Positions 25,679 through 38,317 of a stretch of 57,193 nucleotides of DNA are shown in pieces. A program made the translations under genes and the position numbers. How positions within the stretch are numbered: the stretch's first letter is position 1; every line of letters begins with the position of its first letter. This DNA is from Candidatus Krumholzibacteriia bacterium (lineage in GTDB: Bacteria; Krumholzibacteriota; Krumholzibacteriia; JAJRXK01). The DNA lies in NCBI GenBank assembly GCA_035268685.1, contig DATFKK010000197.1, positions 1 through 57,193 of the forward strand. The letters are read 5' to 3'. The notes beneath the pieces are model-generated. The model did not search any database, was not told the DNA's origin, and saw only the letters and a program-made list of their open reading frames with translations.

Positions 25679-27043
25679 TCAGGCCAGGCCGAGCTTGCGC
25701 AGGTGGTGCTGCAACGTGGTGCGCGGCACCCCGAGCAGCTTGGCCGCCCGGCTCTGGTTGTGACCCGAGGCTTCCCAGGCCCGCTCCACGAGGTGATCGG
25801 TGGCCTGGTGGAGCAGGTTGCCGGCCTCGTCACCGAGGCGGAGGCGTACCTCGAAGGGATCGTCGGCGCTGCCGTTCACGCCCAGGTGCAGGTCCTGCGT
25901 CCCGAGCACACCCGACCGGCTCAACAGGGCCGCGCGCTCGAGCACGTTGCGCAGCTCCCGCACGTTGCCCGGCCAGGGATGCTCGCGCAACGAACGCTGG
26001 GCGTGTTCGTTGAGCTCGATCGAGCGCTTGTTCAGCTTCTTCTCGATCCCCAGCAGGAGACGGTGGGCCAGCGGCAGGATGTCGGCGGGACGCTCGCGGA
26101 GGGGCGGGATGGTGAGGGGGGCGACGTTCAGGCGGTAGTAGAGATCCCGTCGGAAGCTGCGCTCGGCGACACGGGCCTCGAGGTCGACGTTCGTGGCAGC
26201 GATGAAGCGCACGTCGATCGGCCGCGGTTCGACCGATCCCACCCGTTGCACCTGCCCACTCTCGAGCACCAGCAGCAGCTTGGACTGCAGATCCGGGTGC
26301 AGGTCCCCGATCTCGTCGAGCAGCAGCGTGCCCCCGTTCGCCCGCTCCACCAGACCCGTCTTGCCCCGCTGCGACGCCCCCGTGAACGCACCCTCGTCGT
26401 AGCCGAAGAGTTCGCTCTCGAGCAGCTCCGACGGGATGGCTCCACAGTTCAACGTGACCAACGGACCGTCCGAACGGTCGCTGTGATGGTGCACGTACTC
26501 GGCAATGAGCGACTTGCCCGTTCCCGTCTCGCCCCGGAGCAGGATCGTGACGTCGGTCGACGCGTACTCGCGGGCTGCCCGCAGGACCTCCTGCATGGCC
26601 GCACTCTCGGCCACTACGCCCTGGACCCGGGCTCGGCCCTCGGACCCGAGCGCCTCGACCTCGCGCCGCAGGCGCACCTGTTCGAGTGCACGCTCCACGA
26701 CCATGCGCATGAGCTCGGGATCGCAGCCCTTCTCGAGGAAGTCGAAGGCACCGCCACGCATGGCCTCGACGGCCAGCTGGATGTTGCCGTGGGCGGTCAA
26801 CATGACCACCGCGGCCTCCGGGCAGAGTTCACGCGCCTCGGCGAGGACCTCGAGCCCCGTTCCGTCGCCCAACCGGTAGTCCGCCAGGATCAGGTCGAAG
26901 TCCTCGGACCGGAGGGTCTTCCGCGCCTCGGACACCCCAGCGGCCGCTCGGATCTCCCACCCACGACGCCGCAGCGACCGCGACAGGGAGTTTCGGACGA
27001 TCCGCTCGTCATCGACGATCAGCAGTCGGAAGCCCATGGTCAT
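25679..27043 (-). CDS. NtrC-family sigma-54-dependent response regulator
   Basis: 454 residues with the three expected domains. Receiver (1-120; DDE at 11-13, Asp55 in LILADYRLGD, Thr in VMLTAHG, Lys in FLEKG where Gly replaces the usual Pro). AAA+ domain (about 143-370) with Walker A GETGTGKS (171-178), sigma-54 contact loop GAFTGA (219-224) and Walker B GTLLLDEIGDL. Fis-type helix-turn-helix at the end (NQSRAAKLLGVPRTTLQHHLRKLG). It should activate sigma-54 promoters when phosphorylated by the heme-linked kinase whose gene overlaps its start by 35 bases. Start is ATG 27043 or the ATG six bases on; neither has a strong ribosome site, as expected with coupled translation. Confidence 0.93.
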   Translation of the reverse strand: MTMGFRLLIVDDERIVRNSLSRSLRRRGWEIRAAAGVSEARKTLRSEDFDLILADYRLGDGTGLEVLAEARELCPEAAVVMLTAHGNIQLAVEAMRGGAFDFLEKGCDPELMRMVVERALEQVRLRREVEALGSEGRARVQGVVAESAAMQEVLRAAREYASTDVTILLRGETGTGKSLIAEYVHHHSDRSDGPLVTLNCGAIPSELLESELFGYDEGAFTGASQRGKTGLVERANGGTLLLDEIGDLHPDLQSKLLLVLESGQVQRVGSVEPRPIDVRFIAATNVDLEARVAERSFRRDLYYRLNVAPLTIPPLRERPADILPLAHRLLLGIEKKLNKRSIELNEHAQRSLREHPWPGNVRELRNVLERAALLSRSGVLGTQDLHLGVNGSADDPFEVRLRLGDEAGNLLHQATDHLVERAWEASGHNQSRAAKLLGVPRTTLQHHLRKLGLA

Positions 27044-28619
27044 CGTTCACTTGCGATGGGTGCCGGCACGGCAGACGAAGCGTGAACACACTACCCTCAC
27101 CCTTCTGACTGCGCACCTGGACCGTGCCCTGGTGCTGCTGGACCACGCGACGGACGATCGTGAGCCCCAGGCCCGTCCCGTTGCGACTGCGTGTGAAGAA
27201 GGGATCGAAGATCCGTGGCAGCAGGTCCTCACCGATCCCCTGACCGTTGTCGGCCACCTCGATCACGACCTGCTCGCCGTCGAGTTCCGCGCGCAGGTCC
27301 ACTTCGGGATCGGCGACGGTCTCGACCGCCCGGATCGCGTTCGACACGAGGTTGAGCAGGGCCTGTTCGATCCGATGACGATCGATCTCGACCGTGGGCA
27401 CGTCCCCGGACACGTCGACGCGAACGCGGACCGACTCCCGCTGCATCTGCTTGCCCGACAACAACATCACGCGGTCGAAGATCTCGTGCAGGTCGTGCTC
27501 GCCGAACTCGGGCGGATGCGGCCGGGCGAAGTCGTTGACCTCGCTGACGATCCGACCGATGCGCTGCAGGCCTTCGTCCATCTCGTCGTAGACCTCGGCC
27601 TCCTCCTCGTCGTCCACCCCACGGCGACGCAGGTAGTCCAGGTTGCTGCGGACGGCGAAGAGCGGGTTGCGGACGTCGTGGGCGATCCCGGCCGCGATCT
27701 CGCCGAGCGAGACCATCTTCTCGCTCTCGATCTGGCGCTCGGTGGTGTCGCGGATCTCCTGCTGCATGCGATCGAGAGCCCGCGACAGCCCCCCGATCTC
27801 GTCGCTGTCCCCATTCGGGATCGGGGTCTCGAAGTCCCCGCGGCCGATCCGCGCGGCAGCCGACTCCAGCGATTTCACTCGCCGCACGACCGCACCCTCG
27901 ATGAAGCGGTAGACCAGTGTGGCGATCACCGCCGAGGCGATCAGGCAGATCAGGACGCTCCACCAGAAGAAGTCCGTGCGCGCCTCGTCGACGTCGTCCA
28001 TGGGAATGGACACGCTGAGCGCTCCGCGCACGTCACCGACCTCGTAGCCCTGCTCGCCGTGACACTCCAGGCACGAGACGTCGGCCACCAGCGGCGCCAG
28101 GTAACGGTACCGGCGTCCCTCCGGCCCGTCGTCCACCCGTGCGACCTCCCGTAGCTCCCGGCCCTCGGCGCGGGCGGCGTGCACTTCCTCGAGCGCCTCC
28201 CGCTCGAAGCCGTCGGGAGCGTTCACCGGGTTGATGGGATCGAGACTGGTGATGTGGAAGTGGACGTCGAACTCTTCGTTCGGGCTCAGTTCCGCGATCT
28301 CCCGGGTGAGCATGGCGGGGTTGCGCAGGACCAGCGAGTCGCCGTCGGCGGTGATCGCCACGTCGTCGCTGAGGAACGGGTTGTCCTCGACTCCCGGCCG
28401 TTTCGGCACGTAGACGCCGCCGTGGTAGGCGACCCAACCACGGACCACGACCATCTCGTGGTAGAGGTGCCGCGAGACGTCGCGCATCCCCTCTTCGAGC
28501 AGCTCGTGGGTGCGCTGCCCGACGTGACGGAAGGCCAACAGGTTGATCGCCAGGACGATCACCGTGACCCCGACACCGATGCGCACGGACAGACTGGAAA
28601 GAGGTCCGGGCCAGTTCAT
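27009..28619 (-). CDS. Membrane histidine kinase with periplasmic heme-c (DUF3365/Tll0287-like) sensor domain
   Basis: 536 residues. Helix 1 (about 13-31), periplasmic domain (32-215), helix 2 (about 218-238), HAMP (about 240-292), HisKA with phospho-His314 in AAGIAHDVRNPLFAV, HATPase with NLVSNAIRAV, VADNGQGIGED and GTGLGLTI. The periplasmic domain ends in CLECHGEQGYEVGDVRGALSV: one CxxCH heme-c site (Cys183, Cys186, His187) followed by the 'GD.rGalSv..p' strand of Tll0287-like domains. Such sensors bind heme covalently and respond to redox state or a gas such as NO. It overlaps the NtrC-type regulator gene and is divergent from the Hao/Nap operon, the evident target. Confidence 0.9.
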   Translation of the reverse strand: MNWPGPLSSLSVRIGVGVTVIVLAINLLAFRHVGQRTHELLEEGMRDVSRHLYHEMVVVRGWVAYHGGVYVPKRPGVEDNPFLSDDVAITADGDSLVLRNPAMLTREIAELSPNEEFDVHFHITSLDPINPVNAPDGFEREALEEVHAARAEGRELREVARVDDGPEGRRYRYLAPLVADVSCLECHGEQGYEVGDVRGALSVSIPMDDVDEARTDFFWWSVLICLIASAVIATLVYRFIEGAVVRRVKSLESAAARIGRGDFETPIPNGDSDEIGGLSRALDRMQQEIRDTTERQIESEKMVSLGEIAAGIAHDVRNPLFAVRSNLDYLRRRGVDDEEEAEVYDEMDEGLQRIGRIVSEVNDFARPHPPEFGEHDLHEIFDRVMLLSGKQMQRESVRVRVDVSGDVPTVEIDRHRIEQALLNLVSNAIRAVETVADPEVDLRAELDGEQVVIEVADNGQGIGEDLLPRIFDPFFTRSRNGTGLGLTIVRRVVQQHQGTVQVRSQKGEGSVFTLRLPCRHPSQVNDDHGLPTADRR

Positions 28620-29134: not shown

Positions 29135-30508
29135 ATGATCCGAGCCTGCCTGATCGCCCTGTGTGCCTTGGCCCTCCTGGCCACCGGCGCCACGGCGCAA
29201 CTCCCCGACGAAGCTTCCGTGGCCGGCAAATGCATGACCTGCCACAAGGAGAAGCATCCCGGCCTGTACCAGCAGTGGTACGAGTCGGCCCACGGCATCC
29301 ACAACGTCACGTGCATGAGCTGTCACCAGGCCAAGGAAGGCGAACCCGACGCCTACGAGCACTACGACGCAACGATCGCGACCATGGTCACGCCGAAGGA
29401 CTGCGGTCGTTGTCACGAGAAGGAAGCCGAGCAGGTCAACGACAGTTACCACGCGAAAGCCGGCCAGATCCTCGACTCGGCCGACGCCTACCTGGCCCAC
29501 GTCGGCGCGGGGCATCCCGCCGCGATCCAGGGCTGCGAGAGCTGTCACGGCGCCAAGATGGAGATCGATCCCGAGTCGCCGAACAAGCTCAGCAAGAAGA
29601 CCTGGCCCAACAGCGGCATCGGGCGCATCAACCCCGACGGATCGCTCGGAAGCTGCAACGCCTGCCACACACGGCACTCCTTCGACATCGCTCAGGCCCG
29701 CCAGCCAGAATCGTGCGGCAAGTGCCACCTCGGCCCGGATCATCCCCAGAAGGAGATCTACGAGGAGAGCAAGCACGGCAACACGTACTTCACCAACCGC
29801 GAGAAGATGAACCTGGACGCCCAGGAGTGGGTGGTCGGCGAGGACTACAACGTGGCCCCCACCTGCGCGACGTGCCACATGTCGGCCACGCGCACCCAGG
29901 CGTTCACGCACGACGTGGGCGACCGCATCGCCTGGACCAACCGTCCGGTGATCTCGAAGCACAAGGAGAACCACGTCCAGAAGCGCACGGCGATGCAGGA
30001 CGTCTGCCTGGCCTGTCACGGCGACACCTTCGCCGACGGCCACTTCTACCAGTACGACGCCTCGGTGAAGCTCTACAACGAGAAGTTCGCCCAGCCGGCC
30101 CAGGCGATCATGAACAAGATCAAGGAGAAGGACCTCCTCGAGACGCCGGCCGCCTTCTCGAACGACGTCGAGTGGGCGTTCTGGGAGCTTTGGCACCACG
30201 AAGGCCGTCGCGCCCGCCACGGCGCCTCGATGATGGGCCCCGACTACACGTGGTGGCACGGCTTCTACGACGTGCTGCACAACTTCTACTTCGACTTCCT
30301 GCCGAAGGCGCGTGAGTACGGCGATCCCGAGGTCACGGCGATGATCGACGACCTGCTCCAGAACGATCCGATGCACCAGTGGGTGATGACCGACACCGAA
30401 ACGCTGAAGCGCCGGATCAACGAGGGCACCATGCAAGAGGTCTTCGCCAACATGTTCGATGCCTACATCGAGGCGGAAGCACGCGAAGACGAAGAAGAAA
30501 ACGAGTAG
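29135..30508 (+). CDS. Octaheme cytochrome c of the hydroxylamine oxidoreductase (Hao) family
   Basis: 457 residues. ATG 29135 with AGAGAGG ahead and a signal peptide ending GATA-Q (residues 1-21). Eight CxxCH sites have Cys at 33, 60, 90, 134, 174, 194, 244 and 291. A helical C-terminal part without hemes follows, as in Hao, including PDYTWWHGFYDVLHNF (369-384). Hao enzymes oxidise hydroxylamine; epsilonproteobacterial Hao, usually encoded with a NapC-like partner, is proposed to run in reverse and reduce nitrite towards ammonium. That gene pairing is seen here, so a reductive role is the better inference. DYTWWHG is in the region where oxidative Hao carries its cross-linking Tyr; whether Tyr371 is that residue needs alignment. 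First gene of the operon. Confidence 0.82.
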   Translation: MIRACLIALCALALLATGATAQLPDEASVAGKCMTCHKEKHPGLYQQWYESAHGIHNVTCMSCHQAKEGEPDAYEHYDATIATMVTPKDCGRCHEKEAEQVNDSYHAKAGQILDSADAYLAHVGAGHPAAIQGCESCHGAKMEIDPESPNKLSKKTWPNSGIGRINPDGSLGSCNACHTRHSFDIAQARQPESCGKCHLGPDHPQKEIYEESKHGNTYFTNREKMNLDAQEWVVGEDYNVAPTCATCHMSATRTQAFTHDVGDRIAWTNRPVISKHKENHVQKRTAMQDVCLACHGDTFADGHFYQYDASVKLYNEKFAQPAQAIMNKIKEKDLLETPAAFSNDVEWAFWELWHHEGRRARHGASMMGPDYTWWHGFYDVLHNFYFDFLPKAREYGDPEVTAMIDDLLQNDPMHQWVMTDTETLKRRINEGTMQEVFANMFDAYIEAEAREDEEENE

Positions 30509-30520
30509 GGAGACTCATCC

Positions 30521-32014
30521 ATGATCCGAACGTTCTCCATGTTCCTGCGAGCGATATCGATCAGCTCGATCGGGCGTCTCGGGATCGCTCTGGTCACGGG
30601 ATCGTTCGTCACCTTCGTGCTCTTCCAGATCGCCAGCGTTTCCGGCCTGATCGCGAACGCCTACTTCGGTCTGATCCTCTACCTGGGTCTGCCGACGCTG
30701 TTCGTGCTCGGTCTGCTGCTGATCCCGGTGGCCTTCTGGAGGGTCCGCGGATCCTCGGGCAAGAGCCTGCAGGCCCTGCTCGAGGACCGGGTGGGGCCCG
30801 AACAGGTCGAAGGGGGTGCTCTCGGTGCCCCGATCACGCGCACCGTTCTGGTGCTCACCCTGGTGAACGTGATCTTCCTCGGCGTCGCGGGAATGCAAGG
30901 GCTGCACTTCATGGAGTCCCCCGAGTTCTGCGGCACCGCCTGCCACTCCGTCATGAACCCCGAGTGGACCACCTACCAGGCCTCCCCTCACGCGCGGGTG
31001 GACTGCGTGGAGTGCCACGTGGGCGAAGGCGTCGACGCCCTGATCGACTCGAAGATCCAGGGCGCGTGGCAGATGATCTCGGTGACCTTCGATCTCTACG
31101 AACGACCCATCCCCACTCCCGTGCACACCCTCCGGCCGGCGCAGGAGACCTGCGAGCACTGCCACTGGCCCGAGAAGTTCTACGGGAACAAGCTCGAGAC
31201 CTTCGTCCGCTACCAGCAGGACGAGGAGTCGACCCCGATCTACTCCACTCTCAGCATCAAGATCGACTCGCGCGGACGCGGCGACGGTGGCGTGCACTGG
31301 CACGTGGCCGAAGAGAACGAGGTCCGCTACGCGTCGGTCGAGGACCAGCGTCGCGAGATGATCTGGGTCGACGCACGTCAGCCCGACGGCTCGTGGAAGC
31401 GCTACGAGAACACCGATCTCGTGGGGGACCCCGACACCGCCGGACACGAGCGTCGTTTCGACTGCGTGGACTGCCACAACCGGGCCACGCACGTCTACGA
31501 GCAGCCGGACTTCGCGATCGACGAACGCATGCGGCTGGGCCACATCGACCCGGACCTTCCCTTCGTCAAGCGCGAGGCCCTGGCCGCCATCACCTTCGAC
31601 TACCCCGACGTGGAAGCCGCCATGGCCGGCATCGCCAATCACATGCGTGGCTACTACCGACGGTTCTACCCGGAGGTGAGCAGTGGCAACACGAACGAGA
31701 TCGACGCGGCCATCGAATCGCTGCGGTCGATCTACCGGCGCAACATCCACCCGGAGATGAACATCACGTGGGGCTCCTATCCGAGCCTTCTCGGTCACGA
31801 AGAGAGCGCGGGTTGTTTCCGTTGCCACAACCAGAAGCTGAAGGCTGCCGACGGCAGTCACATCAGCGACGACTGCACGATGTGCCACTCCATGCTCGCC
31901 AACGAGGAACCGGATCCGTTCCTCTACATCCGCGAACCGGCCGAGGGACAGCGGACGGCGGCCATGCACACCTACCTGAAGGAAGAGTTCCTGAACTCCT
32001 TCTTCGATCAATGA
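30521..32014 (+). CDS. Membrane-bound hexaheme NapC/NirT-like cytochrome c (quinol dehydrogenase)
   Basis: 497 residues. ATG 30521 after AGGGAGACTCATCC. Three N-terminal membrane helices (about 20-44, 48-72, 106-128) precede a periplasmic domain with six heme sites: one CX3CH (C137-GTA-C141-H142) and five CxxCH (Cys at 162, 211, 315, 432, 452). The block SPEFCGTACHSVMNPEWTTY then SPHARVDCVECHVG is the NapC/NrfH-like start, in which the first heme site often gets a nearby Met. It should pass electrons from menaquinol to the Hao-like protein and possibly to NapA. It is longer than NapC/NrfH (usually one helix, four hemes, about 200 residues). The insert at about 220-310 has no heme. Gene 12 bases after hao. 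Confidence 0.83.
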   Translation: MIRTFSMFLRAISISSIGRLGIALVTGSFVTFVLFQIASVSGLIANAYFGLILYLGLPTLFVLGLLLIPVAFWRVRGSSGKSLQALLEDRVGPEQVEGGALGAPITRTVLVLTLVNVIFLGVAGMQGLHFMESPEFCGTACHSVMNPEWTTYQASPHARVDCVECHVGEGVDALIDSKIQGAWQMISVTFDLYERPIPTPVHTLRPAQETCEHCHWPEKFYGNKLETFVRYQQDEESTPIYSTLSIKIDSRGRGDGGVHWHVAEENEVRYASVEDQRREMIWVDARQPDGSWKRYENTDLVGDPDTAGHERRFDCVDCHNRATHVYEQPDFAIDERMRLGHIDPDLPFVKREALAAITFDYPDVEAAMAGIANHMRGYYRRFYPEVSSGNTNEIDAAIESLRSIYRRNIHPEMNITWGSYPSLLGHEESAGCFRCHNQKLKAADGSHISDDCTMCHSMLANEEPDPFLYIREPAEGQRTAAMHTYLKEEFLNSFFDQ

Positions 32015-32079: not shown

Positions 32080-32499
32080 TTGAGATCCGCCATGTTGACC
32101 GCCTTGATCCCCCTGGTGGCCCTGGCCCTCGCCTCGTGTGCGCAGGGAACGGGTTCCGGGGTGGCGACCGTCGAAGAAACGGTCGAAGTGGCCGCGCAGG
32201 CGTCGCGGGTGGACGTACCCGCCGACCACCCGTCCCTGTCCGAGCAGGAACAATTGATCGCTTGCGCGGACTGCCACCGCGACACCACCCCCGACGTCTA
32301 CGATTCCTGGTACGCCTCGACCCACGGCATCGGCAACGTGAAGTGCTACCAGTGCCACGGGACCTACGAGGACATGAAAGTGGCACCGGCCGTGTCCAAC
32401 TGCGCTACCTGCCACGCGGACATGATCACGAAACAGGCCGACGCTCCCGCGTGTTGGACCTGCCACCCCGCCCACACGTTCGATCCGCACGCGGAGTAG
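32080..32499 (+). CDS. Tetraheme cytochrome c lipoprotein, paralogous to the Hao N-terminus
   Basis: 139 residues from a TTG start (32080) with GGAAGGAAG at ideal distance; the in-frame ATG at 32092 is too far from it. The lipobox LALASC puts the lipidated Cys at 20. Four CxxCH sites have Cys at 62, 89, 108 and 125. Residues 62-93 align without gaps to Hao residues 33-64: PDVYDSWYASTHGIGNV against PGLYQQWYESAHGIHNV, with identical heme spacing. It is probably an electron shuttle anchored to a membrane facing the periplasm, between the NapC-like cytochrome and NapA or Hao. No napB is seen, so it may stand in for diheme NapB. The gene is 65 bases after the NapC-like stop and 11 before napA. Confidence 0.82.
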   Translation: MRSAMLTALIPLVALALASCAQGTGSGVATVEETVEVAAQASRVDVPADHPSLSEQEQLIACADCHRDTTPDVYDSWYASTHGIGNVKCYQCHGTYEDMKVAPAVSNCATCHADMITKQADAPACWTCHPAHTFDPHAE

Positions 32500-32510: not shown

Positions 32511-34901
32511 ATGAATGCGATCTCGAGACGACAGTTCATCAAGCGTGCGGCGGCCCTGACCGCGGCGTCGTACGTGGGCATGAAGCTGCCCTTCTTCCTG
32601 GCCGACGCCCAGGGTCAGGACGCCGACACCTGGACCCGCGGCACCTGCCGCCTCTGCGGGGTCGGATGCCGTCTGGAACTCGGCCTGCGCAACGGGAAGC
32701 CGGTCGCCCTGCGCGGCGTGTCCGATTCACGCACCAACCTCGGTTACCTGTGCATGAAGGGCATGCTCTTCCACAAGATCATGGAGCACCCCGACCGCCT
32801 GACGAAGCCGCTCTACCGCGAGAAGAAGTCCGACGACTTCCGTGAGATCTCGTGGGAAGAAGCCCTGGACATCGCGGCCCAGAAGTTCGTCGACGTGAAG
32901 ACCGAGTACGGATCCGACGCCTGCGCGTACTACGGCTCTGGCCAGGCCCAGACCGAGGAGACCTACTTCTTCCAGAAGGTCATGCGCGCCGGGCTCCAGA
33001 CCAACAACGTGGAAGGCAATCCTCGTCTCTGCATGGCGAGCGCCGTGGGCGGCTACCTGACCAGCTTCGGAGCCGACGAACCGATCGGCGGCTACAGTGA
33101 CATCGAGCAGTGCTACTACTTCTTCATCATCGGGTCGAACATGGCCGAAGCGCATCCGGTGATCTGGCGCCGCGTCATGCGTCGCAAGCTCGACAACCCC
33201 GACACGGTGAAGGTCGTCAACGCCGACCCCCGGATCTCGGCAACATCGCGTATCGCCGACCTGCATCTGCAGTTCGATCCGGGCACGGATCTGGCGCTGC
33301 TCAACGCGATGGCCCACGTGATCATCGAGGAGGATCTCGTCGACCACGACTTCCTGAGGGACTATTGCGTCTTCAAGAAGGGTGGCGACACGATCGACTT
33401 CGATCAGTTCGCGAAGGACGTGGCCGAGTACACGCCCGAGAAGGCGGCCGAGATCTGCGGCGGGAGCATGAACCCCGACGACATCCGCAAGACCGCCCGC
33501 TGGTTCGCCAACAGCAAGGGCACCATGAGCATGTGGTGCATGGGGATCAACCAGCGCAAGCGTGGGGTGTGGGCGAACAACCTGATCCACAACCTGCACC
33601 TTCTCACCGGGCAGTTGTGCAAGCCGGGCGCCGACAGCTTCTCGCTGACCGGTCAGCCCAATGCCTGCGGCGGCGTGCGCGAGGGCGGTGGCCTGTGCCA
33701 CATCCTTCCGGGCCACCGTCCGGTCGCCAAGGATCCGCTGCGCAAGGACGTCGAGCGTCTCTGGGGAGTGCCCGAGGGCAGGATCCCTCCCAAGCCGGGC
33801 TACCACACCATGGCCATGTTCAGCGCCGTGAACGACAGGAAGATCCGGGCGATCTGGATCAACTGCACGAGCCCCGCACAGTCCCTGCCGAACCTCACCC
33901 CCTATCGTGACGGTATGGCGCAGGACGAGGTCTTCGTTGTGGTGACCGACGTCTTCGCCACCAAGACCACCGAGGTGGCGAACCTGGTGCTGCCCACGGC
34001 CTTCCACTTCGAGAAGACCGGCGTCTACGGGTGCACCGAGCGCCGTTCGCAGATCACGCCGAAGGCCAAGGACGCTCCCGGCGAGGCCATGCCCGAGGTG
34101 TGGATGATCCGCGAGTGGGCGCGGCGCATGGGCGAGAAGCTGAACGACCCCGTGTTCGCCAAGGTCATCGAACCCTTCGAGGGTCTCGAGCCGGACTTCG
34201 ACCTGCCCAAGGCGATCTGGGACGAGTACACGCAGAAGCTCACCAAGGGTCGCGACAACGACCTGCGCGGAGCGACCTACGACGTGCTCCTGCAGATGCC
34301 CGATGGTGTGCAGTGGCCGGCTCCCACGGAGAAGTTCGCCCTGACCGGGGGAGCAGTGAAGAAGTTCGTGCGCGGCAAGGACCCGTTGGTCGAGGAGCAC
34401 GGGGAGGGCGATGCCCCCTACGTCTTCTACGGCCCGGCTCACGCCGACAAGAAGCTCTACGTGTGGTTCCGCCCGCATGCCCTGCCGGGCGAGGTGCCCG
34501 ACGACGAGTATCCGATGTATCTGTCCACCGGACGGATCATCGACCATTGGCACACCACCAGCATGACGGGTCGCATTCCCGAACTGCTGCGGGCCAATCC
34601 CTATTCGTTCGTCGAGATCAATCCGAAGGACGCCGAGCGGATGGGGATCAAACCCAACGACATGATCGAGATCACCACCCGCCGCGGGAAGGTGACCATG
34701 CCCGCCCGCGTCATGGAGGGTCCGCTCGAAGGCACCGTGTTCGCCTACTGGCACGACATGGCCGAGAGCCGGATGATCAACAAGGTCGTCAACGACGTCT
34801 TCGATCCCGGTTCGAAGGAGCCCGAGTTCAAGATCGGGGCGTGCCGGATCCGCCGGGTCTCCGGCCCGCGGGACCTTGACCCCGTGGTGACGCAACTCTG
34901 A
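32511..34901 (+). CDS. napA: Periplasmic nitrate reductase catalytic subunit (NapA-type molybdopterin oxidoreductase)
   Basis: 796 residues. ATG 32511 after TAGGAGGCGAAGAC. Strong Tat signal SRRQFIKRAAA at residues 5-15. The [4Fe-4S] site has C46, C49, C53 and C81 (CRLCGVGC and YLCMKG). The Mo ligand is Cys174 in NPRLCMASAV, matching NapA (Nas and NarG differ in this region). Other matches are LPTAFHFEKTGVYGCTERRSQ and TGRIIDHWHTTSMTGR in the cofactor-binding C-terminal domain. It reduces nitrate to nitrite in the periplasm. The family also contains reductases of other oxyanions, so nitrate is likely but not proven. NapB and NapC are missing here; NapD, NapG and NapH follow. Confidence 0.87.
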   Translation: MNAISRRQFIKRAAALTAASYVGMKLPFFLADAQGQDADTWTRGTCRLCGVGCRLELGLRNGKPVALRGVSDSRTNLGYLCMKGMLFHKIMEHPDRLTKPLYREKKSDDFREISWEEALDIAAQKFVDVKTEYGSDACAYYGSGQAQTEETYFFQKVMRAGLQTNNVEGNPRLCMASAVGGYLTSFGADEPIGGYSDIEQCYYFFIIGSNMAEAHPVIWRRVMRRKLDNPDTVKVVNADPRISATSRIADLHLQFDPGTDLALLNAMAHVIIEEDLVDHDFLRDYCVFKKGGDTIDFDQFAKDVAEYTPEKAAEICGGSMNPDDIRKTARWFANSKGTMSMWCMGINQRKRGVWANNLIHNLHLLTGQLCKPGADSFSLTGQPNACGGVREGGGLCHILPGHRPVAKDPLRKDVERLWGVPEGRIPPKPGYHTMAMFSAVNDRKIRAIWINCTSPAQSLPNLTPYRDGMAQDEVFVVVTDVFATKTTEVANLVLPTAFHFEKTGVYGCTERRSQITPKAKDAPGEAMPEVWMIREWARRMGEKLNDPVFAKVIEPFEGLEPDFDLPKAIWDEYTQKLTKGRDNDLRGATYDVLLQMPDGVQWPAPTEKFALTGGAVKKFVRGKDPLVEEHGEGDAPYVFYGPAHADKKLYVWFRPHALPGEVPDDEYPMYLSTGRIIDHWHTTSMTGRIPELLRANPYSFVEINPKDAERMGIKPNDMIEITTRRGKVTMPARVMEGPLEGTVFAYWHDMAESRMINKVVNDVFDPGSKEPEFKIGACRIRRVSGPRDLDPVVTQL

Positions 34902-34972
34902 TGATCCTGCGTCGGGGAGGGACGGATCCACGTCCCTCCCCGGCCGTCCCGAACCCCCTGAACGGAGCCGAC

Positions 34973-35272
34973 ATGCCCATCGGAGGATTCGTCATCACCG
35001 TCGCCCCCGAGGAGATCGACACCGTCGAGGCGGAGCTTTCCGGCCGCGACGCGTGCGAGGTCCACGGGACCGACGACAAGGGCAACATCGTGGCCGTGCT
35101 GGACACCGAGACCAGCGACGCCATGGACGACATCGTCCACGAACTCGAGCAGGATGCCCGGATCCTGTCGGTCGGACTGGCCTATCTCCATGCAGAAGAC
35201 GAAGTCGAAAAGATCATCCGCGGAGAGCTCACTCCCGACCTCCGCAAGCGACGCAGGAACGAGTCGTCGTGA
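34973..35272 (+). CDS. napD: NapD, chaperone for NapA maturation
   Basis: 99 residues from ATG 34973 (AACGGAGCCGAC ahead); an upstream ATG exists but the NapD fold starts here. Pattern: GGFVITVAPEEIDTVEAELS, GNIVAVLDTETSDAMDDIV and ARILSVGLAYLHAED, the beta-alpha-beta arrangement of NapD, which binds the Tat signal of NapA. A charged tail (ELTPDLRKRRRNESS) is longer than usual because the coding region overlaps napG by 83 bases. Gene 71 bases after napA. Confidence 0.8.
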   Translation: MPIGGFVITVAPEEIDTVEAELSGRDACEVHGTDDKGNIVAVLDTETSDAMDDIVHELEQDARILSVGLAYLHAEDEVEKIIRGELTPDLRKRRRNESS

Positions 35273-35834
35273 GGTCCTCCGGGGCCTGGCGGCCGTGACC
35301 CTGGCCGGGCTGGTCAGTGCTCCTTCCCTCGCACTGGCCGGTCCGGTGGGGCGCGATCGCCTTCGGCCGCCAGGAGCGCTCGACGAGGACCACTTCGCCT
35401 CGCGCTGCATCCGCTGCGGCCGCTGCGCCGCCGTGTGCCCCTACGAGTCCATCCAGATGCTCGGCCTGGGCGAGGGCCTGCACGCCGCGACCCCGATCGT
35501 CGAACCGGTCGAGGTGCCCTGCTACATGTGCATGGAGTGCGTCGACGTCTGCCCCACGCGCGCGATCGAGCCGGTCGAGATGGAAGAGATCACCATGGGC
35601 ACGGCGAAGGTCGACCGCGAGATGTGCGTCGCGTGGAACGGTACCAGCCTCTGCCGCACCTGCTACACCGTATGCCCGCTGCGTGACCGTGCGATCACGA
35701 ACTGGGAGTTCAAGCCCGAGGTCGTCGACGACGTCTGCACCGGCTGTGGCGTGTGTGTGCATGCCTGTCCGATCTCCGACGAGACGGGCGACCGCAAGGC
35801 GATCTACGTCGACCCTCCCGGGGTGCGGTCGTGA
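35190..35834 (+). CDS. napG: NapG-like periplasmic ferredoxin with four [4Fe-4S] sites
   Basis: 214 residues from ATG 35190, the only start codon left before the Tat motif TSRREVLRGLAAVTLAG (residues 24-40). This makes the N-region long and overlaps napD by 83 bases. Four cluster motifs: Cys 73/76/79/83 (CIRCGRCAAVC), 111/114/117/121, 146/155/158/162 (CVAWNGTSLCRTCYTVC, the NapG/MauM signature) and 183/186/189/193. NapG works with NapH to move electrons from quinol to periplasmic acceptors. The stop overlaps the napH start as GTGA. Confidence 0.87.
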   Translation: MQKTKSKRSSAESSLPTSASDAGTSRREVLRGLAAVTLAGLVSAPSLALAGPVGRDRLRPPGALDEDHFASRCIRCGRCAAVCPYESIQMLGLGEGLHAATPIVEPVEVPCYMCMECVDVCPTRAIEPVEMEEITMGTAKVDREMCVAWNGTSLCRTCYTVCPLRDRAITNWEFKPEVVDDVCTGCGVCVHACPISDETGDRKAIYVDPPGVRS

Positions 35835-36649
35835 TCCGGCGCTGGCGACACTCCGTCCAGGCCTTCGCTCTGCTCCTGCCGATCGCCCTGCCGGCGATCC
35901 ACGTGTTCTTCGGCTGGTCGTGGATCCAGGGCGGATACCAGTCCCTGGGCATCGGGCCCGTGTGGTTCCTCTCGCCGCTCGAGGGGGTCGAGTCGGCGCT
36001 CGCGAGCCGGTCGATCCCCTGGACGATCATCGTGGGCGCCGTCCCCCTGGCTCTGCTCGCGGTGTTCATGGGCCGCGTCTTCTGCAGCTGGATGTGTCCG
36101 ATCAACACCCTGCAGGAACTGGCCGAGTGGCTCGCCCGCACGCTCTTCGGCTACCGCCCCGGCAACCGACTTCCGATGCCCCGGCCGGTGATCTGGATCG
36201 TGCTGGGCGCCGATCTGGTGCTGAGCTTCCTGCTCGCCACGCCGCTGTTCTCGATCGTCTCGCCGCCCGGGCTCGTCAGCCGCGAGGCGATGGGCATGTG
36301 GTTCTTCGGTCTGGTCGGCTTCCAGACGGCGATCATCGCGGCGGTCCTGGTGCTCGGCCTGATCACGCGCCGCTGGTTCTGCCGTGGGCTGTGCCCGGTG
36401 GGCGGTCTGCTCGGCCTGCTGGGGACCAGGCGCGTCCTGAACGTGACCTTCGACCCCAGCAACTGCCTGAACTGCGGACTCTGCACCGAGGCCTGCCCCA
36501 TCGGCCTGGAGCCGGGCCGCAACGAGGTGAACCTCCTGGTGTGCTGGAACTGCGCGGAGTGCGTGGAGACCTGCCCCGGGAACAGCCTCGACCTGACGTT
36601 CACCCGCCCCCGCCGGCGGGAAGAGATCCTGGAGGAGACCCCGGCATGA
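35831..36649 (+). CDS. napH: NapH-like membrane ferredoxin (quinol dehydrogenase)
   Basis: 272 residues, GTG start at 35831 overlapping the napG stop. Four or five membrane helices; two CX3CP motifs at their ends (FCSWMCPIN, FCRGLCPVG) and two [4Fe-4S] sites on the C-terminal side (CLNCGLCTEACP, CWNCAECVETCP). This is the NapH/NosR-C-terminal type that, with NapG, oxidises menaquinol. The NapGH pair and the NapC-like cytochrome give this locus two possible quinol-side entries. Overlaps mobB as ATGA. Confidence 0.88.
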   Translation: MIRRWRHSVQAFALLLPIALPAIHVFFGWSWIQGGYQSLGIGPVWFLSPLEGVESALASRSIPWTIIVGAVPLALLAVFMGRVFCSWMCPINTLQELAEWLARTLFGYRPGNRLPMPRPVIWIVLGADLVLSFLLATPLFSIVSPPGLVSREAMGMWFFGLVGFQTAIIAAVLVLGLITRRWFCRGLCPVGGLLGLLGTRRVLNVTFDPSNCLNCGLCTEACPIGLEPGRNEVNLLVCWNCAECVETCPGNSLDLTFTRPRRREEILEETPA

Positions 36650-37176
36650 ACGCGCGCCCGCAGGCCGTGGCCTTCGTTGCCCCCTCCGGCACGGGGAAGA
36701 CGACCCTCGTGGAGGCCGTGATCCGGACCCTGCGGGGGCGCGGATGGCGCGTGGGAGCCCTGAAACACGACGCTCACGACTTCGACATCGACCATCCCGG
36801 CAAGGACTCGCATCGTTTCCGGGAGGCCGGAGCCGGCACGACCGCGATCGCGTCGGCCACACAGGTGGCCGTCATGCGAACGACCGCGTCGGCCTGGTCG
36901 CTCGACCGCGTCCTCGCCACCTGTTTCGGCGACGAGGACCTGGTGCTGGTCGAGGGCTACTCCACCGGGGACCTGCCGAAGATCGCGGTCCACCGGGCGG
37001 CGACCGGACAGCCCCTGCGTGTCGGGATCGACGACCCGGACCTGATCGCGGTGGTCACCGATGTCGAGCTCGAGACCGGCGTCCGCTGCTTCGCACTGGA
37101 CCGGCCCGCCGAAGTGGCCGCGTTCCTCGAGACGACCCTGATCCGCCGGAGGCCGCTCACGCGCGTCCCACAGTAG
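36646..37176 (+). CDS. mobB: MobB, molybdopterin-guanine dinucleotide biosynthesis adaptor
   Basis: 176 residues. P-loop APSGTGKTTLVEAVI near the N-terminus, then WRVGALKHDAHDFDIDHPGKDSHRFREAGA, the MobB signature, and LVLVEGYS (Walker B-like). MobB binds GTP and assists MobA in forming the guanylated cofactor carried by NapA-type enzymes. ATG 36646 overlaps the napH stop, so cofactor supply is translationally tied to the reductase genes. Confidence 0.9.
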   Translation: MNARPQAVAFVAPSGTGKTTLVEAVIRTLRGRGWRVGALKHDAHDFDIDHPGKDSHRFREAGAGTTAIASATQVAVMRTTASAWSLDRVLATCFGDEDLVLVEGYSTGDLPKIAVHRAATGQPLRVGIDDPDLIAVVTDVELETGVRCFALDRPAEVAAFLETTLIRRRPLTRVPQ

Positions 37177-37291
37177 AACATCCGTGACTTCCGAGCCCGG
37201 CTGCCTACCCCGCGCGCGACGCGGCACGGCGAAGGGCCGATACGGTCGCGGGGGAAACCCCTCGATCAGCTCCCGTTCCTGGAAGGAAGCC
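37177..37291 (+). promoter_or_regulatory. 115-base moaA leader with several short hairpins
   Basis: The gap between mobB and moaA can form CGGC/GCCG around 37227-37239 and GGGG-GAAA-CCCC (37250-37261, GNRA loop), and ends in CTCCCGTTCCTGGAAGG, which includes the moaA ribosome site. Moco riboswitches lie in this position upstream of moaA in many bacteria and have a GNRA-capped stem. I cannot show the conserved core by eye, so this stays a weak suggestion. Confidence 0.2.
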
Positions 37292-38317
37292 ATGATCCAC
37301 CCGACCCGCCGCGTGACTCCCGCGCCGAGCGGCGAACATCTCGAGGATCCCTTCGGCCGCCGGCTCGACTACCTGCGCCTGTCGGTCACCGATCGTTGCA
37401 ATCTGCGTTGCCGCTACTGCATGCCGGCCACGGGCGTGGCCAAGGTCGGGCACGACGACGTGCTGCGGATCGAGGAGATGCTCGAACTCTGCTCGATCCT
37501 CGTCGACCTCGGTGTGCGCAAGATCCGACTGACCGGAGGGGAACCCCTGGTCCGGCGCGGAGTGCTCGACCTGCTGCGCGGCCTGGACGAGCTTCCGACC
37601 CCGCCGACGCTGGCCGTCACCACGAACGGTGTATTGATCGAGGACAAGCTCGATGCCCTGCTCGCCACAGGTGTCGACCGCGTGAACCTGAGTCTGGACT
37701 CGCTCCGTCCCGAGACCTTCGCGCGGATCACCCGGCGCGACGACTTCGACCGCGTCCGCCGCGGCCTCGACCTGCTGCTCGCCTCGCCGCTCAACCTCAA
37801 GATCAACGTGGTCGTCCTGCCGGGCACGAACGACCACGAGTTCGGTGACTTCGTCGATCTGGTCCGCGACCACGACGTGACCGTGCGCTTCATCGAACCG
37901 ATGCCCTTCGACGGCGACGGCGGCCGCGAGGCCACGAGCATGGACGGCGACACGATCGTCGACCGGTTGCGCACCCACGTCGACCTGAGGCCTCTCGGCC
38001 GCGGTCCTCGCGACGTGGCCGAGACCTGGGAGAGCGACGCACTGCGTGGTCGTCTGGGCGTGATCCGGGCCCACACCCGCGCCTTCTGCGCCGACTGCAA
38101 CCGCTTGCGGCTCGACGCCCGCGGTCGCCTGCGCACCTGCCTGTACGGCACGCCGAGCGCCGACCTCGGCGCGATCCTGCGCAGCGGAGGTCACCCCGAC
38201 ACCGTGCGGGGCGCGATCGCCGAGGCGATCACCCGTCGCCATGCCGACGGCTACGTCGCCGAGGCCACCCGTTGCCGCACCACCACCAACGAATCCATGT
38301 CGAGCATCGGGGGCTGA
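37292..38317 (+). CDS. moaA: GTP 3',8-cyclase MoaA (radical SAM)
   Basis: 341 residues from ATG 37292 (TGGAAGGAAGCC). The radical-SAM cluster motif is in CNLRCRYCMP; GTP-side features are LTGGEPLVR and the second [4Fe-4S] site FCADCNRLRLDARGRLRTC. The C-terminus ends in Gly-Gly, as needed for activity in MoaA. It catalyses the first step of molybdenum cofactor synthesis together with MoaC. Start chosen at the MoaA N-terminal region before FGRRLDYLRLSVTDRC. Confidence 0.95.
   Translation: MIHPTRRVTPAPSGEHLEDPFGRRLDYLRLSVTDRCNLRCRYCMPATGVAKVGHDDVLRIEEMLELCSILVDLGVRKIRLTGGEPLVRRGVLDLLRGLDELPTPPTLAVTTNGVLIEDKLDALLATGVDRVNLSLDSLRPETFARITRRDDFDRVRRGLDLLLASPLNLKINVVVLPGTNDHEFGDFVDLVRDHDVTVRFIEPMPFDGDGGREATSMDGDTIVDRLRTHVDLRPLGRGPRDVAETWESDALRGRLGVIRAHTRAFCADCNRLRLDARGRLRTCLYGTPSADLGAILRSGGHPDTVRGAIAEAITRRHADGYVAEATRCRTTTNESMSSIGG

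Follow-up and report, generated by a model that had tools for sequence, protein, structure and literature searches.

The window, by which we mean the whole analysed stretch of DNA with its 57,193 nucleotides, contains a gene cluster with the order hao-napC-napM-napA-napD-napG-napH. The third gene of this cluster encodes a small tetraheme lipoprotein, which is very probably NapM. The features of the cluster are as follows.

29135 to 30508 (+): hao, octaheme cytochrome of the Hao family with eight CxxCH motifs
29231 to 29326 (+): block of Hao hemes 1 and 2, homologous to NapM
30521 to 32014 (+): napC-like gene, long membrane cytochrome of the NapC/NirT type, probable quinol oxidiser
32080 to 32499 (+): napM (tetraheme lipoprotein), 139 residues from TTG at 32080 or 135 residues from ATG at 32092, based on the open reading frame and orthologues
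32137 to 32139 (+): Cys20 of the lipobox LASC (residues 17-20), predicted lipid attachment site
32227 to 32229 (+): His50, likely distal heme ligand, invariant in 22 NapM proteins
32263 to 32358 (+): two-heme block CxxCH - WxxSxH - CxxCH, residues 62-93, homologous to Hao residues 33-64
32401 to 32415 (+): heme 3, CATCH, residues 108-112
32452 to 32490 (+): heme 4, CWTCH, with the invariant His132 and the nearly invariant His137
32511 to 34901 (+): napA, monomeric (Desulfovibrio-type) periplasmic nitrate reductase
34901 to 35272 (+): napD (PF03927)
35154 to 35834 (+): napG, 4Fe-4S protein, limits of the open reading frame with the true start inside
35753 to 36649 (+): napH, membrane 4Fe-4S protein, limits of the open reading frame

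The gap between napM and napA measures 11 bases. The NapC-like protein is unusually long (497 residues), with extra CxxCH sites past the NapC/NirT region, and its first heme-like site (30929 to 30946, +) is of the form CX3CH (CGTACH). Downstream of napH we found MobB-like and MoaA-like molybdenum cofactor genes (36649 to 38317, +; read from the translations of open reading frames only). Upstream of hao lies a divergent two-component system (25679 to 28619, −) similar to NrfS-NrfR as known from Desulfovibrio (PMC5701242). Its histidine kinase possesses a Tll0287-like sensor domain (PF11845) holding a CxxCH motif, and its response regulator, as read from the open reading frame, is of the sigma-54 type.

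In the alignment the Hao of the window has a Trp at the position of Tyr467 of Nitrosomonas europaea HAO, which we take to be the cross-link Tyr of that enzyme, and a Tyr two residues away. The Trp is in line with a reductive octaheme enzyme. The same genome carries a separate gene for a pentaheme nitrite reductase of the NrfA family (contig C176, 4200 to 5603; L073, L074) and thus offers both Hao and NrfA as candidates for nitrite reduction, so that Hao as the only nitrite reductase could be ruled out.

Relatives of the lipoprotein were collected by searches with the protein itself and then with profiles, run on 80 same-phylum genomes, on 136 genomes from a different phylum and on a sample of 387 genomes. 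The clear relatives are tetraheme open reading frames of 124-171 residues. A search of plasmids for NapM yielded nothing useful; two plasmids, from Desulfobaculum bizertense (L070, 7272 to 9269) and Desulfosarcina ovata (L071, 7242 to 9260), each carry a pair of napC/nirT and octaheme Hao genes with no napM or napA within 8 kb, in the latter case with nitric oxide reductase and norR nearby. No curated family specific to the lipoprotein scored over its cut-off: Pfam gave the generic PF14522 and a borderline PF02085, and no NCBIfam model came near its cut-off.

The TTG start of the lipoprotein gene has the purine stretch GGAAGGAAG on its 5' side. The four CxxCH motifs of the protein occupy residues 62-66, 89-93, 108-112 and 125-129. 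Across 22 aligned NapM proteins the four hemes never vary, nor do His50, His82 and His132, and His137 is nearly invariant. These four histidines are enough for four bis-His hemes, and we infer this type of ligation for NapM.

The lipid anchor claimed in the original prediction is upheld as a prediction, made from a signal peptide with the lipobox LASC and its Cys20. A lipobox occurs in five of 23 NapM proteins, namely in the window protein, in three relatives from the same class (L028, L029, L030) and in L111 (8175 to 8687, −), and it is absent from the other 18. L111 belongs to a second, unrelated lineage; its NapM, with the lipobox LGAC, is encoded directly before napA and beside a five-heme open reading frame. 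On the sampled tree this distribution needs two changes. In the four same-class proteins the lipobox Cys is followed by Ala, Ser, Asn or Val and never by Asp, although the sorting rule of Escherichia coli may not be that of this lineage. According to the alignment, about 29 residues lie between Cys20 and the first conserved histidine, His50, and this stretch is much shorter in NapM proteins without a lipobox. Anchored in this way, the carrier would stay at a membrane surface, and the tethered form may serve as a natural test of NapM as a diffusible versus a membrane-bound carrier.

The starting point of the analysis was the claim that residues 62-93 of the lipoprotein and residues 33-64 of the neighbouring Hao align without gaps and that a third heme site follows in both proteins. 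The alignment proved to be exact: CADCHRDTTPDVYDSWYASTHGIGNVKCYQCH of the lipoprotein and CMTCHKEKHPGLYQQWYESAHGIHNVTCMSCH of Hao share 16 of 32 residues, and 10 of 26 if the heme Cys and His residues are disregarded. When the 26 non-heme residues were shuffled with the six heme Cys and His residues kept in place, none of 200,000 shuffles equalled the real pair in identity count or in BLOSUM62 score, which rules out chance or an artefact of the heme motif. BLASTP of the lipoprotein against Hao gave E = 2e-10 as a single comparison. The third heme site is present in both proteins, at a distance from heme 2 of 19 residues in the lipoprotein versus 30 in Hao, and profile methods carry the match through it.

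The 50% identity across this block and the location of hao two genes upstream of napM could suggest that the N-terminal module of the adjacent Hao was duplicated to give rise to the lipoprotein, whose main task would be that of an electron partner of Hao, the more so as NapM was proposed to mediate electrons to Hao in Caldithrix (PMC5317091). We regard this scenario, the duplication part of which goes back to the original prediction, as highly improbable. In trees of the module, which comprise 59-77 columns only, a clade of the lipoprotein and its own Hao is rejected (AU test, p = 0.0014 with 35 rows and p = 0.0004 with 42 rows), and the lipoprotein groups with other NapM proteins. Counted over the 26 non-heme positions, the lipoprotein has 15-18 identities with NapM proteins of the same class, 10-14 with those of other phyla and 10 with its own Hao. 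The Hao of the window in turn has 7-11 of 26 identities with NapM proteins of other phyla, which are about as close to it as its own neighbour, and the match to Hao hemes 1-3 is just as good for NapM proteins from other lineages. Furthermore, napM and napA were found together in eight loci in which the examined stretch contains no hao (L028, L029, L105, L106, L108, L110, L111, L112). The kinship of NapM and Hao is family-wide and old, with no local duplication.

The neighbourhoods of the relatives bear on the function as well. In 22 of the 23 loci read napA lies directly downstream of napM; in the remaining locus (L030) the contig ends 86 bases past napM. In 12 of these loci the fetched stretch also contains hao on the same strand, and in one (L068) hao is divergent. 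The other ten showed no hao; among them, L030 and L069 are truncated by the end of a contig. As napA is next to napM in nearly every locus while hao is frequent but optional, NapA represents the constant partner of napM. In addition, six genomes of the same class, several of them drafts, encode a Hao with 60-63% identity but no NapM at E <= 1e-12. A dedicated partnership with Hao, as had been suggested, is therefore not borne out, and a role of NapM towards Hao would be secondary at best. In one genome from another phylum (L059, 1107 to 5267), napC-napM-napA is preceded on the same strand by a pair of hao genes that are similar in size but differ from each other.

The NapM name is based on gene order, heme count, relatives, the absence of NapB and the type of NapA, and not on the sequence of NapM from Desulfovibrio desulfuricans. 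The protein is a small secreted cytochrome with four CxxCH motifs, and four hemes were found in all relatives read. Its gene is located directly upstream of napA in a cluster with napD, napG and napH. NapA is closest to the monomeric NapA of D. desulfuricans (721 bits compared to at most 498 bits for other NapA proteins). A search for NapB (PF03892) gave no match anywhere in the 99% complete genome, the lipoprotein itself included, whereas the E. coli control was detected.

To place the three-heme module among multiheme cytochromes, a profile built from 22 NapM proteins was scored against Hao proteins, decahemes and NrfA. Nine Hao proteins not chosen for their likeness to the lipoprotein reached 29-38 bits, and 11 others, which had been selected as matches of the lipoprotein search, 33-56 bits. 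The scores were 17-31 bits for 20 decahemes of the DmsE type and 11.5 bits for NrfA of E. coli. All Hao matches are in register at hemes 1-2 or 1-3. In the reverse direction, a profile of Hao hemes 1-3 found NapM proteins as its best multiheme targets outside the Hao family, with up to 44 bits (two truncated Hao proteins scored higher), while profiles of Hao hemes 3-4, 4-6 and 6-8 gave no NapM above 17 bits. A comparison of NapM with Hao hemes 1-3 by hhalign resulted in 99.2% over 62 columns. The lipoprotein is not itself a member of the Hao family, which is characterized by eight hemes including the catalytic heme 4: it has four hemes, and module 1-3 alone matches.

An alternative explanation is that the resemblance reflects a generic multiheme motif (CxxCH, WxxSxH, CxxCH) and no special kinship of NapM and Hao. 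A wider NapM profile run against the PDB also matches 6r2q_A (45.5 bits), which we take to be MtrA of an MtrCAB complex, whatever its PDB label, together with cytochromes of alternative complex III and NrfA, and 21 out of 22 NapM proteins match the DmsE family model weakly. The occurrence of the same motif in unrelated cytochromes, which would speak against a relationship, was seen in part, as a weaker version of the module in DmsE/MtrA-type decahemes. The unselected Hao proteins still score higher than decahemes and NrfA, and their matches are in register. A further hint arises from the structure model. AlphaFold2 with an alignment of 22 rows led to a NapM model with a pLDDT of 80 and a pTM of 0.56 (a version with 11 rows was poor, with a pLDDT of 60), and its seven best Foldseek matches are structures of HAO and octaheme nitrite reductases. 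While one must keep in mind that even the best of these matches scores weakly (E = 0.11, probability 0.91, TM 0.40) and that the model was built without hemes, they favor the octaheme enzymes, and we consider the generic explanation to be unlikely.

Taken together, we propose with good confidence that the lipoprotein is the NapM of a nitrate reductase of the napCMADGH type, replacing NapB and lipid-anchored in this case, that it delivers electrons from quinol to monomeric NapA, and that its first three hemes and hemes 1-3 of octaheme Hao are homologous versions of an ancient module. What appeared to be an odd lipoprotein would thereby be identified as a component of a NapB-less nitrate reductase, and the homology of the module ties NapM to the entry module of octaheme enzymes of the nitrogen cycle. 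In the literature accessible to us we found no statement of such a kinship.

The direction of descent might also be the reverse of a duplication out of Hao. Octaheme enzymes were proposed to be fusions of a pentaheme enzyme and a triheme cytochrome (PMC12285233), so NapM could be a free relative of this triheme unit, an idea rather than a result. Hemes 1-3 of Hao would then descend from a NapM-like triheme or tetraheme cytochrome fused to a pentaheme NrfA-like enzyme. The restriction of the profile match to Hao hemes 1-3 fits this idea, and the 42-row tree places, with weak support, a short subfamily of octahemes among the NapM proteins. The best-scoring octahemes for the NapM profile come from this shorter subfamily (L014, L015, L016, L020) rather than being the Hao of the operon. 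The subfamily, to which L022 also belongs, shows the heme spacing 27,25-26,43,29,20,41,82 and mostly has a length of about 420-450 residues. Against this stand the 59 columns, the unrooted tree with long branches, the 35-row tree, which groups all 11 NapM proteins in one clade, and the decahemes of the DmsE/MtrA type as a further, weaker relative of the module. We thus judge descent of the Hao module from a NapM-like cytochrome improbable on present evidence. The fuller picture is a shade less probable still: NapM would be the free-living relative of a triheme cytochrome whose fusion in front of an NrfA-like pentaheme enzyme gave rise to the octaheme Hao and nitrite reductases, here still located beside nitrate reductase and Hao and tethered to a membrane by a lipid. 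Should structures bear out the kinship, NapM could serve as a small and tractable model of the ancestral N-terminal half of Hao.

Returning to the preferred assignment as NapM, the following electron route may be envisaged in analogy to proposals from the literature (PMC5317091). Electrons would leave the quinol pool via the NapC-like cytochrome and/or NapGH and would then pass to the tetraheme head of NapM, tethered from the lipidated Cys20. From there they could enter monomeric NapA at its iron-sulfur cluster and serve to reduce nitrate. In a side branch the head of NapM could also feed the neighbouring Hao. It should be noted that NapG has been put forward as another protein that could donate electrons directly to NapA (PMC5317091), which counts against the NapM route, and that a review from 2026 calls the role of NapM "not clear" (PMC13223375), which counts against the role assigned here.

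In comparison with known systems, octaheme Hao shares with NapM the three-heme module, the spacing of 27 residues between hemes 1 and 2, and the WxxSxH motif 12 residues before heme 2. NapM differs in that it has four hemes where Hao has eight, lacks the catalytic heme, has a shorter spacing between hemes 2 and 3, and carries a heme 4 tail of its own, CWxCHxxH(x4)H. Decahemes of the DmsE/MtrA type match NapM weakly over four hemes (TIGR03508; PDB 6r2q) but possess ten hemes, score below Hao and lie outside nap clusters in the cases seen. NapB, like NapM, is a proposed electron donor to NapA, yet it belongs to another family and has two hemes compared to four. The substitution of NapB suggested in the original prediction appears to be right, and it had already been published for NapM of napCMADGH systems. 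D. desulfuricans has napCMADGH without NapB, and its NapM is induced together with NapC and NapA (PMC5701242, citing Marietou 2005). The cluster napCMADGH was also reported for Thermovibrio ammonificans (PMC5441870), and from napC on the gene order of the window is the one published for these two organisms. Clusters of napM with nap and hao are on record for Caldithrix (PMC5317091), Deferribacter (PMC6896113) and Thermosulfurimonas/Dissulfuribacter (PMC5276818). Like the window protein, the published NapM of napCMADGH or napMADGH systems (D. desulfuricans 27774, Thermovibrio, Deferribacter, Caldithrix) is a small tetraheme c-type cytochrome encoded directly upstream of napA, with no napB and often near hao. 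Compared to the NapM proteins read in other phyla, which have no lipobox except for L111, the NapM of the window is distinguished by its predicted lipid anchor and its long tether.
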